From Methanomicrobium antiquum (GTDB taxonomy: Archaea > Halobacteriota > Methanomicrobia > Methanomicrobiales > Methanomicrobiaceae): a DNA stretch of 64,000 nucleotides. Made by a program: the position numbers and the translations under genes. The notes under the pieces were generated by a model. It had not been told where the DNA came from and did not search any database. It worked only from the letters and a program-made list of their open reading frames with translations. Positions 34,910 through 63,589 of the stretch are shown here, one piece after another. The stretch covers positions 1,426,001 to 1,490,000 of the forward strand of contig NZ_CP091092.1 in assembly GCF_029633915.1 (NCBI RefSeq). The letters are read 5' to 3'. The stretch's first letter is position 1; each line of letters starts with the position of its first letter.

Positions 34910-35229
34910 GAGTGGGAGTAGTAAGCCCCATTCTGTTTTTATGCGGCATTCAGCTGTCGCGCCATACCCGAAGCCGGCCCGGAAATGCCGTTATGCTTCT
35001 GTTCTGGCTTGCACCCGCAGGGATTCACCGTTCCATCGTGTCCTAAAACCTAAATAAGCGCTTCAGCAGCTTTTAATCTGCATCATAAACATCAGTTAAA
35101 GGCCGTATCGTTTCTGTGTCAGAGCCGTGACTCTCGCCACCCGCACTTGAATGCGGCTGCGTAACCGGACGGAGTGGGGACTTTCCTCAGCGGCAAATAG
35201 ATGCCACCGTCAGCCGCACTCTCCCTCTC
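34910..35229 (-). ncRNA. rnpB: RNase P RNA, archaeal type A
   Basis: About 320 nt. The ends pair as P1: GAG-A-GGGAG at the 5' end (35229 leftward) with CTCCC-A-CTC at the 3' end (34910 rightward). Conserved blocks are seen on the minus strand: GAGGAAAGTC (35179-35188) and the 3' AGAATGGGGCTTA (34922-34934), with a GTGCAAGCCAG-like segment between. RNase P removes tRNA 5' leaders with protein partners. A TATA-like TGTATATATTG lies ~27 nt upstream (around 35250-35260). Exact ends are inferred from P1. Confidence 0.92.
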
Positions 35230-47410: not shown

Positions 47411-49533
47411 CACCGGAGATGCAGATTTTTTCAGTTATTATCTGGATAATAATTCTCAAGTTTATCCAGATGTCAATCTGGCCGCTTTTGAAATCACCTT
47501 TGGGAAGGTTCTCATACGGGATTTCATATCCTGCATCATTAATTGTTTTTGCACTTCTGTCATGGTACTGTGGACTTTTTCATCTGCCTGTTCATTTTGC
47601 ACTTGTTTTTTTTGTAGTACTCTTATTCTATTATTTTTATAAGGGAGAATATACAAAGAAGGAAATTTTTGAAAATATCAGATGGGATATTGTTTTCTTC
47701 CTTTTCTTTTTATTCATGCTTGAAGTCAGATACTTAAACCCCTCCATCTCTTATGCCGAAAAATTTATGGATCATGCATTTTTGGCATCAATCATAAACA
47801 ATCCAACTGTTCCTCCTGTCGATCCGTGGTATTCAGGAGGAAATCTTGACATCTATTATTATCTCGGTCACTGGATCTTTGGATCACTTGGAGTAATTTC
47901 AGGAATAAAATCAACAATAGTATTCAATCTTATTCTTCCAACCGTCTTTGCAAATACTGCCGTTTCGCTTTATGCCATAGGAAGACTTTTATTAAACAGA
48001 TATGAATGGCTTTTGCTTTTCCCCCTTTTCATAGTAAATCCTGCATTTATATATCACTTAATTCTTGGAAAAAGCATACAGACTGTTATCTGGGATAGTA
48101 CAAGAACTATTGACGCCGCAATTACGGAATATCCTGTATTTTCAATGCTCTGGGGTGATCCACACGCACATGTAATTTCTTTTTTAAACCAGGCACTATT
48201 CCTGTTCCTTTTAATATTCTGCTATATGAAATGGAATGAATCAGATGAGAAGACAAAATGGATTCTTGCAGTGCTTCTTTCAATCAGTCTTGGCTCAATG
48301 CCGCTTTTAAACACATGGGATGTTTTGATATATGCTCCGGTACTTTTGTTGACAGGTATTCTGATCTTTTTCAGAAACAAAAATAGAAATGAAGATAAAC
48401 ACAAGATCACTCCTGATAAGTCCTTTCTAAAATCAGATCTTTATTTATACCTGACAAAGGCCCTGCCGCTTAAAATTTTTATTATTGTACCTGTATTATC
48501 AGTAATCATATACCTCCCATATTATCTGATGCTGAATACTAGCGGAGTAGAAGGTATTGGAATTGTACATGCTCCAACAAGTCCTTTCGCGTTTATTCTG
48601 GTATACGGGTTTTTTCTGGCAGTTCTATACTTAGAATGCCTAAATGATCTCAAAAAAAGACCATGGATTTTAGCATTCTTAATTCCATTTGGATTTTTTG
48701 GATACATTGGAGCAGGTCTTTGTGTAGTTCCTGCTTTGGCGCTTGTTTTAAGGAAAAACAGGACTGCTCAGGATATTTTGGGATCGCTTGGACTTTTAAT
48801 AATTATTTTTACAGAGATCATATATTTAAAAGACAATATGGGCGATGACTATTTCAGGATGAACACTGTCTTTAAATTTTCACTCATTGCCTGGATGATG
48901 CTTGGAATATCATGCTTTACGTTCATCGGGAAATATCTTGACAAAAAGTTCCCCGAAAATTCCAAAACTGAAATAAGTCAGAAAATGATTTGTCAAAATC
49001 AGACCTGGCCTGGCAAAATCAAATTGCCGGAAAACAAAAAATGTGCGTATCTGCTGGGAATAGCAATATGTATAATATTAATCCTGCCAGTACTCCTCCC
49101 TGACATGAATTACGGATATGGAGGAAAGACACTTGACGGAATGGACTGGATAAAAACACACCATCCATATGACTATGAAGCAATTGAATTTTTAAGAAGC
49201 CTGAATGGTACTGTAAACATCGTTGAGGCTGAAAACAATGATTACACCTACTACTCAAGAGTTTCCTCAATGACCGGCTATCCAACAATTATAGGAATGC
49301 CATTTCATGAACAGATGTGGAGAGGAGATTTGGGACTTGTTGGTGAGAGAATGTCTGATGTCAGAAAAATATATGAAAATCCGGATGACTGCATATCTCT
49401 TATGAAAAAATATGGAATGACCCATATATTTGTTGGTAAATCAGAAGATGAAATTTATAATGTCAATCTTCCATACAACCAGTTTAAAGAAATTTTCAGG
49501 AATGAAGGTGCGACAATTTATGCGCTTTATTAA
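47407..49533 (+). CDS. DUF2298 multi-pass membrane protein
   Basis: 708 aa from TTG 47407 (TTGA overlap with the preceding stop). At least twelve hydrophobic helices. The YYY-type signature region is MDHAFLASIINNPTVPPVDPWYSGGNLDIYYYLGHW, and there is a WGDPHAHVISFLNQ block. Architecture resembles GT-C membrane glycosyltransferases. With the FAD enzyme, GT2 and flippase it forms a four-gene unit, plausibly making or transferring a lipid-linked glycan to surface proteins. Confidence 0.85.
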   Translation: MTPEMQIFSVIIWIIILKFIQMSIWPLLKSPLGRFSYGISYPASLIVFALLSWYCGLFHLPVHFALVFFVVLLFYYFYKGEYTKKEIFENIRWDIVFFLFFLFMLEVRYLNPSISYAEKFMDHAFLASIINNPTVPPVDPWYSGGNLDIYYYLGHWIFGSLGVISGIKSTIVFNLILPTVFANTAVSLYAIGRLLLNRYEWLLLFPLFIVNPAFIYHLILGKSIQTVIWDSTRTIDAAITEYPVFSMLWGDPHAHVISFLNQALFLFLLIFCYMKWNESDEKTKWILAVLLSISLGSMPLLNTWDVLIYAPVLLLTGILIFFRNKNRNEDKHKITPDKSFLKSDLYLYLTKALPLKIFIIVPVLSVIIYLPYYLMLNTSGVEGIGIVHAPTSPFAFILVYGFFLAVLYLECLNDLKKRPWILAFLIPFGFFGYIGAGLCVVPALALVLRKNRTAQDILGSLGLLIIIFTEIIYLKDNMGDDYFRMNTVFKFSLIAWMMLGISCFTFIGKYLDKKFPENSKTEISQKMICQNQTWPGKIKLPENKKCAYLLGIAICIILILPVLLPDMNYGYGGKTLDGMDWIKTHHPYDYEAIEFLRSLNGTVNIVEAENNDYTYYSRVSSMTGYPTIIGMPFHEQMWRGDLGLVGERMSDVRKIYENPDDCISLMKKYGMTHIFVGKSEDEIYNVNLPYNQFKEIFRNEGATIYALY

Positions 49534-49592: not shown

Positions 49593-49775
49593 CTGATAAT
49601 AATTCAAAAACCTTTATCACTCTTTATGATGAATTAATATAGCTACATCAATCGCTGACTGATGAGTGATGAAGGAGTAACTCAAAACCAATATAACCGG
49701 AAGAGCATTGAAAAAACGGTCTTCAGACGTTTTTGCAGATGATTTCAGAAATATCTGAATGAATTTTTTTCTGCT
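49593..49775 (+). ncRNA. Candidate structured RNA / leader upstream of L7Ae
   Basis: No ORF. CCTTTATCACTC (49611-49622) pairs with GAGTGATGAAGG (49664-49675) as a 12-bp stem with one G-U pair. Inside are a C-box-like ATGATGA (49626-49632) and CTGA/CTGATGA (49655-49665). A second hairpin follows (AAAAAC 49712-49717 with GTTTTT 49729-49734), then TTCAGA (49744-49749) with TCTGAA (49754-49759) and seven T (49764-49770). GATAATAATTC near 49594-49604 may be the TATA box, putting the RNA 5' end near the first stem. Either an attenuating leader of L7Ae or a separate small RNA. Confidence 0.5.
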
Positions 49776-49808
49776 CTTTTGGCTCTTTGCTCCTGAATGA
49801 GGTGAGTT

Positions 49809-50177
49809 ATGTCAAAAGTTTACGCAAAATTTGAAGTTCCTGACGAAATTCAGAACAAAGCACTTGAAGTTCTTGAAGTTTCAAGGGACACAGGAAAGAT
49901 TAAGAAAGGATCAAACGAAGCCACAAAGGCTGTCGAGAGAGGAATCGCACAGCTTGTATTAATCGGCGGCGACGTTGAGCCTGAAGAGATTGTTATGCAC
50001 CTTCCGGCACTTTGTGACGAGAAACAGTGCCCATACGTTATTATCAACCAGCAAAACGATGTTGGTGCGGCAAGCGGCCTTGAAGTAGGTTCTGCAGCAG
50101 CAGCGATTGTCAAACCCGGCAAGGCAAAAGAACTCCTTGATGAAGTTCTTGGTCAGATAGGCGAACTTAAGCAGTGA
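49809..50177 (+). CDS. rpl7ae: Ribosomal protein L7Ae
   Basis: 122 aa. L7Ae/L30e fold with [26 protein letters not shown], the RNA-binding block that recognises kink-turns in rRNA, C/D and H/ACA sRNAs and RNase P RNA. A strong GAGGTGA precedes the ATG and is partly enclosed by a small CCT-GAATG-AGG hairpin (49792-49802). First gene of the classical archaeal L7Ae-S28e-L24e-Ndk cluster. Confidence 0.97.
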
Positions 50178-50188
50178 GGTGACCATTT

Positions 50189-50395
50189 ATGGCAGATGCA
50201 ACGCCGGCAGAAGTTATTGAGATTATCGGTCCGACAGGAATGCACGGAGAAGCTTTCCAGGTCAAATGCCGTATTCTCGATGGCTCAAACAAAGGAAGGA
50301 TTATAACCCGCAACACAGTCGGGCCAATCCGCGAGGGCGATGTGCTTATGCTCATCGAGACCGAACGTGAAGCTAAGAAATTATCGAGGCGCTAA
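50189..50395 (+). CDS. rps28e: Ribosomal protein S28e
   Basis: 68 aa. Typical beta-barrel sequence with [11 protein letters not shown], and [27 protein letters not shown] near the C-terminus. Small-subunit protein. GAGGTGA precedes the ATG, and L24e starts 2 nt after its stop. Confidence 0.96.
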
Positions 50396-50397
50396 AA

Positions 50398-50589
50398 ATG
50401 GTGGAGAAATTTGTATGTTCATTCTGCGGAGAACAGATTGAGCCTGGAACAGGAAAGATGTATGTTAAAAAAGATGGTTCAATCTTTTATTTCTGCAGCT
50501 CAAAGTGCCAGAACAACTACCGCCTAAAAAGAGTTCCACGCCGTGTGACCTGGACCGCAGCAGGCAGAAAAGCGCTCGGCAAGGAGTGA
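50398..50589 (+). CDS. rpl24e: Ribosomal protein L24e
   Basis: 63 aa. Zinc-binding [29 protein letters not shown] arrangement (shown in part) of the L24e family, then [13 protein letters not shown]. The gene lies 2 nt after S28e and 6 nt before ndk, indicating tight co-transcription. Confidence 0.96.
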
Positions 50590-50595
50590 TCCTTA

Positions 50596-51045
50596 ATGGA
50601 TCAGACATTCTTAATGATCAAACCTGACGGTGTCCAGCGCGGACTCGTTGGTGAGATTGTTGCACGCTTTGAAAAGAAAGGTCTCAAACTTGTTGCGGCA
50701 AAATTTGAGTCACTTCCAGAAGAGCGTGTAATGGAACATTACTCCGAACACAAAGACAAACCGTTCTTCCCGGGACTCAAATCATACATCATGAGCGGAC
50801 CGTGCTTTTTGATGGTTTGGGAAGGCAAAAATGTCGTTTCAATTACCCGCCAGATGATTGGCGCAACCAATCCTGCAGAGGCACTTCCGGGCACAATCCG
50901 TGGAGACTTTGCTCTTGAGATTGGAATGAATGTAATACACGGTTCAGACTCAGACGAGACTGCAAAACGTGAGATTGCAATTCACTTCAAAAAAGAAGAA
51001 ATCACCTCCTATGAAAGAGTAGATGAGAAATACCTCTACGAGTAA
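50596..51045 (+). CDS. ndk: Nucleoside diphosphate kinase
   Basis: 149 aa. Transfers gamma-phosphate between nucleotides through the catalytic His in [10 protein letters not shown]. Other blocks: [13 protein letters not shown] and [10 protein letters not shown]. In many euryarchaea infB (aIF5B) follows ndk; here it does not, and a perfect palindrome lies 19 nt past the stop. Confidence 0.96.
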
Positions 51046-62830: not shown

Positions 62831-63589
62831 CTAAATAATTCTTATTGAGAGAATCGTCACCTTTTTTTCAGGAATATATACAGCGTTTGCTGAAACAGGC
62901 AGTTTCTCTTTGCCATCCCTGCAAAGATTAAATTCAATCTTTTCTCTTTCACTTCTCCTGTACCCACAATTTTTGCGCATTCCGGATAAAAATTCAGCAA
63001 ATGATTCAAGATTTTCTTTGCACACAAAAATGTCCGGTTTTACAGGTACAGATTCCTCTTTTTCATCGGGTTTTGATATTCCAAGAACTTCATACATCTG
63101 CATGTTCATCCTTATGACATTGTTTTCATCATCAAGAATTACCATACATGTTCCGGTATTTTCAAAAGCGGCATCCATTATTTCCTCATTACATCTGCGG
63201 TTTACAATATCCTCTATTTTGTGTGTGAGTTCCAACAGCTGACCTCTTGGATCATTTCCCTTTTGAAGATAAAAATCAGCGCCGCAGTTCAAAGCCTCTA
63301 TTACAACGCATTCATCACCTTTTCCTGTGAATATAATAAAAGGAATCTCAGGACAGGGGGAATTTATTCCAGGATATATCCCCCTTACTGCTTTTAAAAA
63401 TGAGATTCCATCTATTTCATCCATATCATAATCACAGATTACAGCATCATATTTTTCAGAAAGAAGTTTTTCCATTCCTTTTGATGCTGATGAAACACAA
63501 TCCACAGAAATATTGCCCTGACGCTCCAGAAAAAGTTTTGATACATCCAAAACAACCTCTTCATCATCAATCATCAGCACCTTCATCAT
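62831..63589 (-). CDS. Response regulator with PAS domain (REC-PAS)
   Basis: 252 aa from ATG 63589 (GGGGG upstream; ATG 63586 equally possible). The receiver domain (~1-120) has MIDDEEV, acceptor Asp in AVICDYDMDEIDG, and FTGKGD. A PAS domain (~140-250) follows (AFENTGTCMVILDDENNVIRMN). This REC-PAS arrangement without a kinase is common in Methanomicrobiales. No cognate kinase is seen nearby. Confidence 0.88.
   Translation of the reverse strand: MMKVLMIDDEEVVLDVSKLFLERQGNISVDCVSSASKGMEKLLSEKYDAVICDYDMDEIDGISFLKAVRGIYPGINSPCPEIPFIIFTGKGDECVVIEALNCGADFYLQKGNDPRGQLLELTHKIEDIVNRRCNEEIMDAAFENTGTCMVILDDENNVIRMNMQMYEVLGISKPDEKEESVPVKPDIFVCKENLESFAEFLSGMRKNCGYRRSEREKIEFNLCRDGKEKLPVSANAVYIPEKKVTILSIRII

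Follow-up and report, generated by a model that had tools for sequence, protein, structure and literature searches.

The window analysed here is a stretch of 64,000 nt comprising bases 1426001–1490000 of the 2.44 Mb single-contig genome of Methanomicrobium antiquum. In it, the gene for L7Ae (eL8) is followed by genes for S28e, L24e and nucleoside-diphosphate kinase in a presumed operon, and preceded by a gene for a chlor_Arch_YYY protein that ends at 49533. The initial annotation had named the gene 3' of the leader L7Ae, and this identity was confirmed by TIGR03677 (174 bits, cut-off 134.6); the nearest relatives of the protein are L7Ae of Methanomicrobium and other Methanomicrobiaceae. The leader element under study sits in the l7ae 5' UTR, from the promoter to the start codon, and takes the same place in relatives. 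The region folds strongly, and better than shuffled sequences (z -3.4). No Rfam family reached its cut-off in the leader, where all matches were far below the cut-offs, and the sole match to reach cut-off in the whole window was archaeal RNase P RNA (RF00373, 190.8 bits; 34910–35229, minus strand). This RNA is itself a client of L7Ae and, judged by eye, reads UAU-GA-U-GCAG...CUGC-U-GA, a kink-turn (k-turn) laid out as k-turn B in the list below. The features assigned to the locus are as follows.

49606–49617 (+): putative BRE/TATA promoter element (AAAAACCTTTAT), including most of the 5' arm of the initially annotated stem; AAACCTTTAT at near-fixed distance in relatives
49641–49645 (+): predicted transcription start region, about 26 nt 3' of the TATA centre
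49658–49660 (+): ACU, candidate C-helix 5' strand of k-turn A, with GGU 49801–49803 as partner
49661–49665 (+): candidate bulged strand of k-turn A, GAU bulge 49661–49663 and GA 49664–49665; GAU in 106 of 109 leaders
49666–49667 (+): GU, 2-nt link between the k-turns, G-U with U49798 and U-A with A49797
49668–49672 (+): bulged strand of k-turn B, GAU bulge 49668–49670 and GA 49671–49672; box C-like UGAUGA at 49667–49672
49673–49680 (+): 3b (A49673) and P2 5' arm GGAGUAA (49674–49680), NC helix of k-turn B; covariation
49681–49786 (+): P2 loop, 106 nt here, with hairpins of its own and a T7 tract inside
49787–49794 (+): P2 3' arm UUGCUCC (49787–49793) and 3n (U49794); covariation
49795–49796 (+): GA, non-bulged strand of k-turn B; box D-like CUGA at 49793–49796; GA in all parsed leaders, as required by the parse
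49799–49805 (+): Shine-Dalgarno GAGGUGA, assigned by sequence and conservation; GA 49799–49800 would be the non-bulged strand of k-turn A and GGU 49801–49803 its C-helix strand
49809–50177 (+): L7Ae (eL8) gene, the regulated gene and presumed source of the ligand; TIGR03677 above cut-off
50189–51045 (+): downstream genes of the presumed operon, S28e (50189–50395), L24e (50398–50589) and nucleoside-diphosphate kinase (50596–51045); NCBIfam equivalogs

We collected 177 leaders from Methanomicrobiales, 109 of them distinct. The initial annotation had drawn the leader around a 12-bp stem. The complementarity between 49611–49622 (CCTTTATCACTC) and 49664–49675 (GAGTGATGAAGG), with one G-U pair, does exist, but it did not hold up as a conserved RNA stem. 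Its 5' arm, 49611–49622, falls on the TATA/BRE element, where nearly all relatives carry AAACCTTTAT, and in the aligned leaders of relatives AAACCTTTAT mostly lies 47–54 nt 5' of the core. The archaeal consensus suggests a promoter at 49606–49617, and archaeal promoter spacing would place the transcript start near 49641–49645. Because the 5' arm is a TATA box with the start about 26 nt downstream, it should be untranscribed. Of its last (inner) five pairs, relatives retain a mean of 2.75, with about 1.9 expected at random. The 12-bp stem was thus rejected as a structure, one arm being a TATA box and the remainder not conserved. As for the box-like motifs within it, CTGACTGATGA was found where it had been described, while ATGATGA (49626–49632) is not a conserved box: of the 109 leaders, only that of the window has it. 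The GUGAUGA box proved to pair not as in the drawn stem but with a CUGA that lies next to the Shine-Dalgarno, some 120 nt further 3'.

The conserved core of the leader is (A/G)CU-[GAU]GA-NN-[GAU]GA-N, P2, N-GA-NN-GA-(G/A)GUGAG and the start codon, a layout common to the 109 distinct Methanomicrobiales leaders with two deviants (L051 and L111). The leader parse demanded parts of the motif, which in part accounts for the invariance of these letters. L051 and L111 failed this parse; in them, P2 and at least one GAUGA repeat are damaged, and a promoter-like element and a Shine-Dalgarno are still present. Across the alignment, columns of the CUGAUGA...RAUGA block mostly hold about 2 bits each, whereas upstream of it, where the leaders were not gap-aligned, most positions remain below 0.5. 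The last GA and the GGU of the core's 3' strand lie inside the Shine-Dalgarno, which starts 2 nt 3' of the non-bulged GA of k-turn B. The element has the 3-nt bulge, the tandem G:A/A:G pairs (GA/GA) and the paired NC helix (P2) of a k-turn. It departs from a single-k-turn model in that both strands are duplicated in the 109 distinct leaders. The core can be read as a pair of k-turns separated by 2 bp, in which P2 serves as NC helix and the Shine-Dalgarno belongs to the outer k-turn.

Pairing in relatives bears on this layout. Over the whole structure, 92.8% of cells were paired, compared to 40–55% in slid versions, and the covariation score of the structure was reached by 0 of 500 shuffles. 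Pairs of P2 changed between GC and AU, AU and GC, and among GC, UG and UA. Plain folding of the window predicted P2 only weakly (0.14). When the second bulged strand was combined with the first non-bulged strand (b2-n1), all four pairs were present in 97 of 109 leaders, whereas each of the three remaining combinations gave four pairs in 0 of 109. Because b2-n1 alone of the four strand pairings yields a helix, k-turn B is fixed, and the remaining strands consequently fall into register as k-turn A with a 2-bp link. A GAU, AAU or UAU bulge followed by GA was found for k-turn B in every parsed leader, letters that were partly demanded by the parse. On comparative evidence the inner k-turn (B) is near certain. 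Of the 109 leaders, 102 have U:A as the -1 pair of the link and 7 have C:G; the change from U:A to C:G is seen in the clade L131–L142, where the adjacent -1' pair changes from U-G to U-A. The -2 position showed no covariation (87 of 109 paired, 89.8 in shuffles). A further helix can be drawn in the window, in which UAACUC/GAGUUA (49678–49683 with 49804–49809) would form a 6-bp helix that crosses P2 and takes in part of the Shine-Dalgarno and the start codon. A helix of the same type is also possible in L002 and L005, and may represent a lineage-specific alternative fold.

For the outer k-turn (A), the C helix is paired at -1' and -2' in 109 of 109 Methanomicrobiales leaders and at -3' in 105 of 109, in positions that are mostly invariant and hence weak evidence. 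Coupling between its strands has little independent support, because its non-bulged GA lies in the Shine-Dalgarno and would be conserved anyway. What supports k-turn A is the near-perfect CUGAUGA 5' of k-turn B, the exact spacing and the distribution, and the outer k-turn is likely. A different reading is that only k-turn B works, the upstream GAUGA being an alternative bulged strand, or part of a hairpin or k-loop (CUGA-CUGAUGA, 49655–49665) that competes with B. The published models of l7ae leaders draw a single k-turn (PMC6298567), and the Archaeoglobus fulgidus construct used for FRET, GCC-GAU-GA-AUGA followed by added sequence, holds only one GAUGA (PMC6298567). In many leaders, moreover, a hairpin upstream (for instance AUCAC/GUGAU) is preferred in plain folding, and the mean pairing of site 2 with upstream sequence was 0.61. 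This upstream pairing shifts register among families, however, without consistent covariation, and many leaders have no upstream GA partner. The upstream GAUGA was also tried as partner of the first GA and rejected: with the first bulged strand set against the first non-bulged one, none of 109 Methanomicrobiales leaders and none of 29 others had all four pairs. Furthermore, the 7-nt period of the bulged strands and the 2-nt spacing opposite are kept in Methanomicrobiales and 12 further families. We consider it unlikely that k-turn B works alone. The k-loop hairpin itself (CUGA-CUGAUGA, closed by AUCAC/GUGAU) forms in silico in some lineages, with varying register and partners, and no consistent preference emerged when it was put to a swap test. 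It was set aside as a general structure and is possible as a competing fold.

Two extra hairpins and a T7 tract had been described between the boxes and the L7Ae ribosome-binding site. They lie inside the P2 loop and outside the core, and since this loop is only 6–15 nt in most relatives (47–112 nt between four-pair arms in some Methanomicrobiaceae) they represent a local insertion. A strong hairpin with the T7 tract spans 49697–49778 of the window, within the P2 loop, and is missing from most relatives. The tract had also raised the possibility of a stand-alone small RNA, C/D-like or other, that derives from the leader and ends at the T run (~49765–49771). Such an RNA would fit the box-like motifs and the strong regional fold, and snoRNA candidates derived from leaders were described in Thermococcus kodakarensis, some of which may be cis elements according to the authors (PMC4247193). 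Against it, the T-run segment is missing from most relatives, guide spacers and an Rfam family at cut-off are lacking, and conservation continues through the Shine-Dalgarno up to the start codon; a stand-alone RNA is therefore very improbable. That a guide RNA was the less likely option, as initially judged, agrees with boxes that abut the hairpin and leave no guide spacers, at odds with the box C/D layout. The CCT-GAATG-AGG hairpin proposed around the ribosome-binding site is present as a stretch where it had been placed, but it competes with P2, its CCT belonging to the P2 3' arm and the adjoining 3n position. Some lineages have lost it, among them L131–L135, which read CUCUCGAGUGAAG.

We ran a covariance model, R1, on 295 genomes of the phylum (E up to 0.05). 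It matched 65 genomes with one match each, 54 of them Methanomicrobiales and 11 others. In Methanomicrobiales, the matches stop no more than a few bases from the L7Ae start, and the 11 matches outside the order, which have weak scores, are all immediately 5' of the L7Ae gene in their respective genomes (11 of 11). The window itself scored poorly because of its 106-nt P2 loop. Direct inspection of l7ae leaders extended the tandem bulged strand together with GA-NN-GA to 12 further families (f7, f8, f9, f11, f12, f14, f15, f16, f18, f19, f22 and f31), where 41 of 43 genomes carry it; in the shuffle control for the tandem, 0.5% of shuffled leaders contained the bulged-strand motif. P2 pairs 4 to 7 were paired in 27, 28, 26 and 23 of 29 leaders of the tandem-bearing families, compared to 22, 22, 18 and 16 in shuffles, and for each pair 0 of 1000 shuffles reached the observed value. 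A single k-turn-like element was seen in families f25 and f26 (one genome each). Among the l7ae leaders inspected, the tandem was missing from five GC-rich families (f13, f17, f21, f23 and f27) and from f10, where motif-like strings fall at the start codon. GC-rich l7ae leaders (f13, f23, f27; L262, L270, L280, L282, L291 and others) have a different conserved stretch in common, GATGATGCTCCTAGCCG...GGCAGGGGAGC or a variant, 5' of the start, which may be another design for L7Ae binding. In L264 and L268 (f9), the NC helix of k-turn B is unusually small, a single C-G pair closing a GGAA/GCAA tetraloop. A second copy of the element was also sought in the same genome: among the other CTGATGANNNATGA matches, inspection covered the two nearest to the tandem pattern (CTGATGAATGATGA and CTGATGATTGATGA), and both lie at or in coding sequence. 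The CTGATGATTGATGA match, at 63564–63577 of the window (minus strand), is close to the beginning of a coding sequence that resembles a response regulator and reflects coincidental codons (VLMIDDE). Comparison between genomes shows the promoter position, P2, the strand motifs, the register, the spacing and the distribution.

Ribosomal operons are frequently autoregulated by one of their own products. The genes for S28e and L24e follow that of L7Ae, and one of these proteins could in principle be the ligand. The bulge, the GA pairs and the position of the element match the published L7Ae k-turn, and the motif lies upstream of L7Ae in every outside genome matched by R1, which leaves a ligand other than L7Ae scarcely credible. 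The initial annotation had found it plausible that L7Ae binds its own leader and represses its own synthesis. This idea is strengthened by the conservation, by the covarying hairpin with flanking UGAUGA and CUGA, by the fusion of the motif with the Shine-Dalgarno and by published archaeal l7ae leaders (PMC5539422, PMC6298567). We consider it probable, at roughly 0.8, that the element is a translational autoregulation element of the l7ae mRNA made of two tandem k-turns. By analogy with other archaeal leaders, it is very probably an OFF switch operated by L7Ae, and we infer that L7Ae binds to it, throws the switch and could occupy it in two copies.

The switch would work as follows. A TATA promoter at ~49606–49617 would start the leader near 49641. 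The inner k-turn B would be formed by UGAUGA (49667–49672) and GA (49795–49796) with P2 as NC helix, and the outer k-turn A, 2 bp away, by GAUGA (49661–49665) and the GA of the Shine-Dalgarno (49799–49800) with the short C helix ACU/GGU. In the free RNA, the bulged strands would be open or paired elsewhere and the Shine-Dalgarno would be usable. In many lineages, these strands are predicted to pair upstream, in differing register; that such pairing helps to keep the Shine-Dalgarno free is a speculative extension of the folding models. L7Ae in excess of its ribosomal, RNase P and sRNP targets would then bind and fold one or both k-turns. Bound L7Ae would tie the Shine-Dalgarno into the outer k-turn and block translation of l7ae, perhaps also of S28e-L24e-ndk. 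Since the Shine-Dalgarno forms one strand of the outer k-turn, binding would occlude it directly. Two k-turns only 2 bp apart may be unable to hold two L7Ae simultaneously.

Feedback via the l7ae leader is already known. L7Ae of Sulfolobus acidocaldarius binds RNA and represses a reporter via the l7ae leader, and repression was also reported via the leaders of A. fulgidus, Methanosarcina acetivorans, Methanococcus maripaludis, T. kodakaraensis and others (PMC5539422). The A. fulgidus leader folds on L7Ae binding, a crystal structure of its k-turn with L7Ae is available, and its ribosome-binding site becomes protected (PMC6298567). The published l7ae leader k-turn (Daume et al., 2017, PMC5539422; Huang et al., 2019, PMC6298567) resembles the element described here in gene, protein, GAU bulge, tandem G:A pairs, the short C helix and a Shine-Dalgarno at or in the k-turn, and the A. 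fulgidus k-turn has the same A:U pair at 3b:3n. In contrast to the one k-turn of the published models, both strands are doubled here at a fixed 2-nt spacing, P2 sets the register and the second GA lies inside the Shine-Dalgarno. Two possible Kt-b locations were noted for Haloferax volcanii, the only such species (PMC5539422). Furthermore, high leader conservation was described for Sulfolobales only (PMC5539422), whereas the Methanomicrobiales leaders are also highly conserved.

The main texts of PMC5539422 and PMC6298567 make no mention of two k-turns in a natural l7ae leader, and no tandem k-turns in l7ae leaders were found in a literature search that covered main texts, largely of open-access papers. 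The two-site layout, which most of the sampled related families share, thus appears to be undescribed so far. A 'double kink-turn module' in euryarchaeal RNase P RNA is named in the title of Lai et al., 2017 (ref. 44 of PMC6565675); going by that title, it is alike in placing two neighbouring k-turns in an archaeal L7Ae-binding RNA, but would be part of a ribozyme subunit whereas the leader would be an mRNA switch. The strand motifs and spacing of the leader fit two adjacent k-turns. The k-turn or k-loop of box C/D sRNAs is similar in that UGAUGA and CUGA boxes form a k-turn recognised by L7Ae; unlike these RNAs, the leader has no guide spacers, its box C is directly followed by the hairpin and the motif is fused to the Shine-Dalgarno. 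On a broader reading, the tandem k-turn of the leader, with the Shine-Dalgarno in its outer half, would be of ancient origin, would bind two L7Ae molecules cooperatively and would be ancestral to most of the sampled phylum, the published single-k-turn models being half of the design; we hold this tentatively, at somewhat below even odds.

L7Ae serves the ribosome and RNase P as well as the C/D and H/ACA sRNPs, and since it is shared among them the amount of L7Ae determines how much each can draw on. The analysis provides a covariance model for a leader family without an Rfam entry and fixes its pairing register. A tandem predicts two L7Ae per mRNA, and weaker repression if the upstream GA alone is mutated. 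It would also give synthetic biology, which makes wide use of L7Ae/k-turn pairs, a tandem switch of natural origin. For the cell, a two-site leader could yield steeper, cooperative feedback on L7Ae synthesis than a single site.
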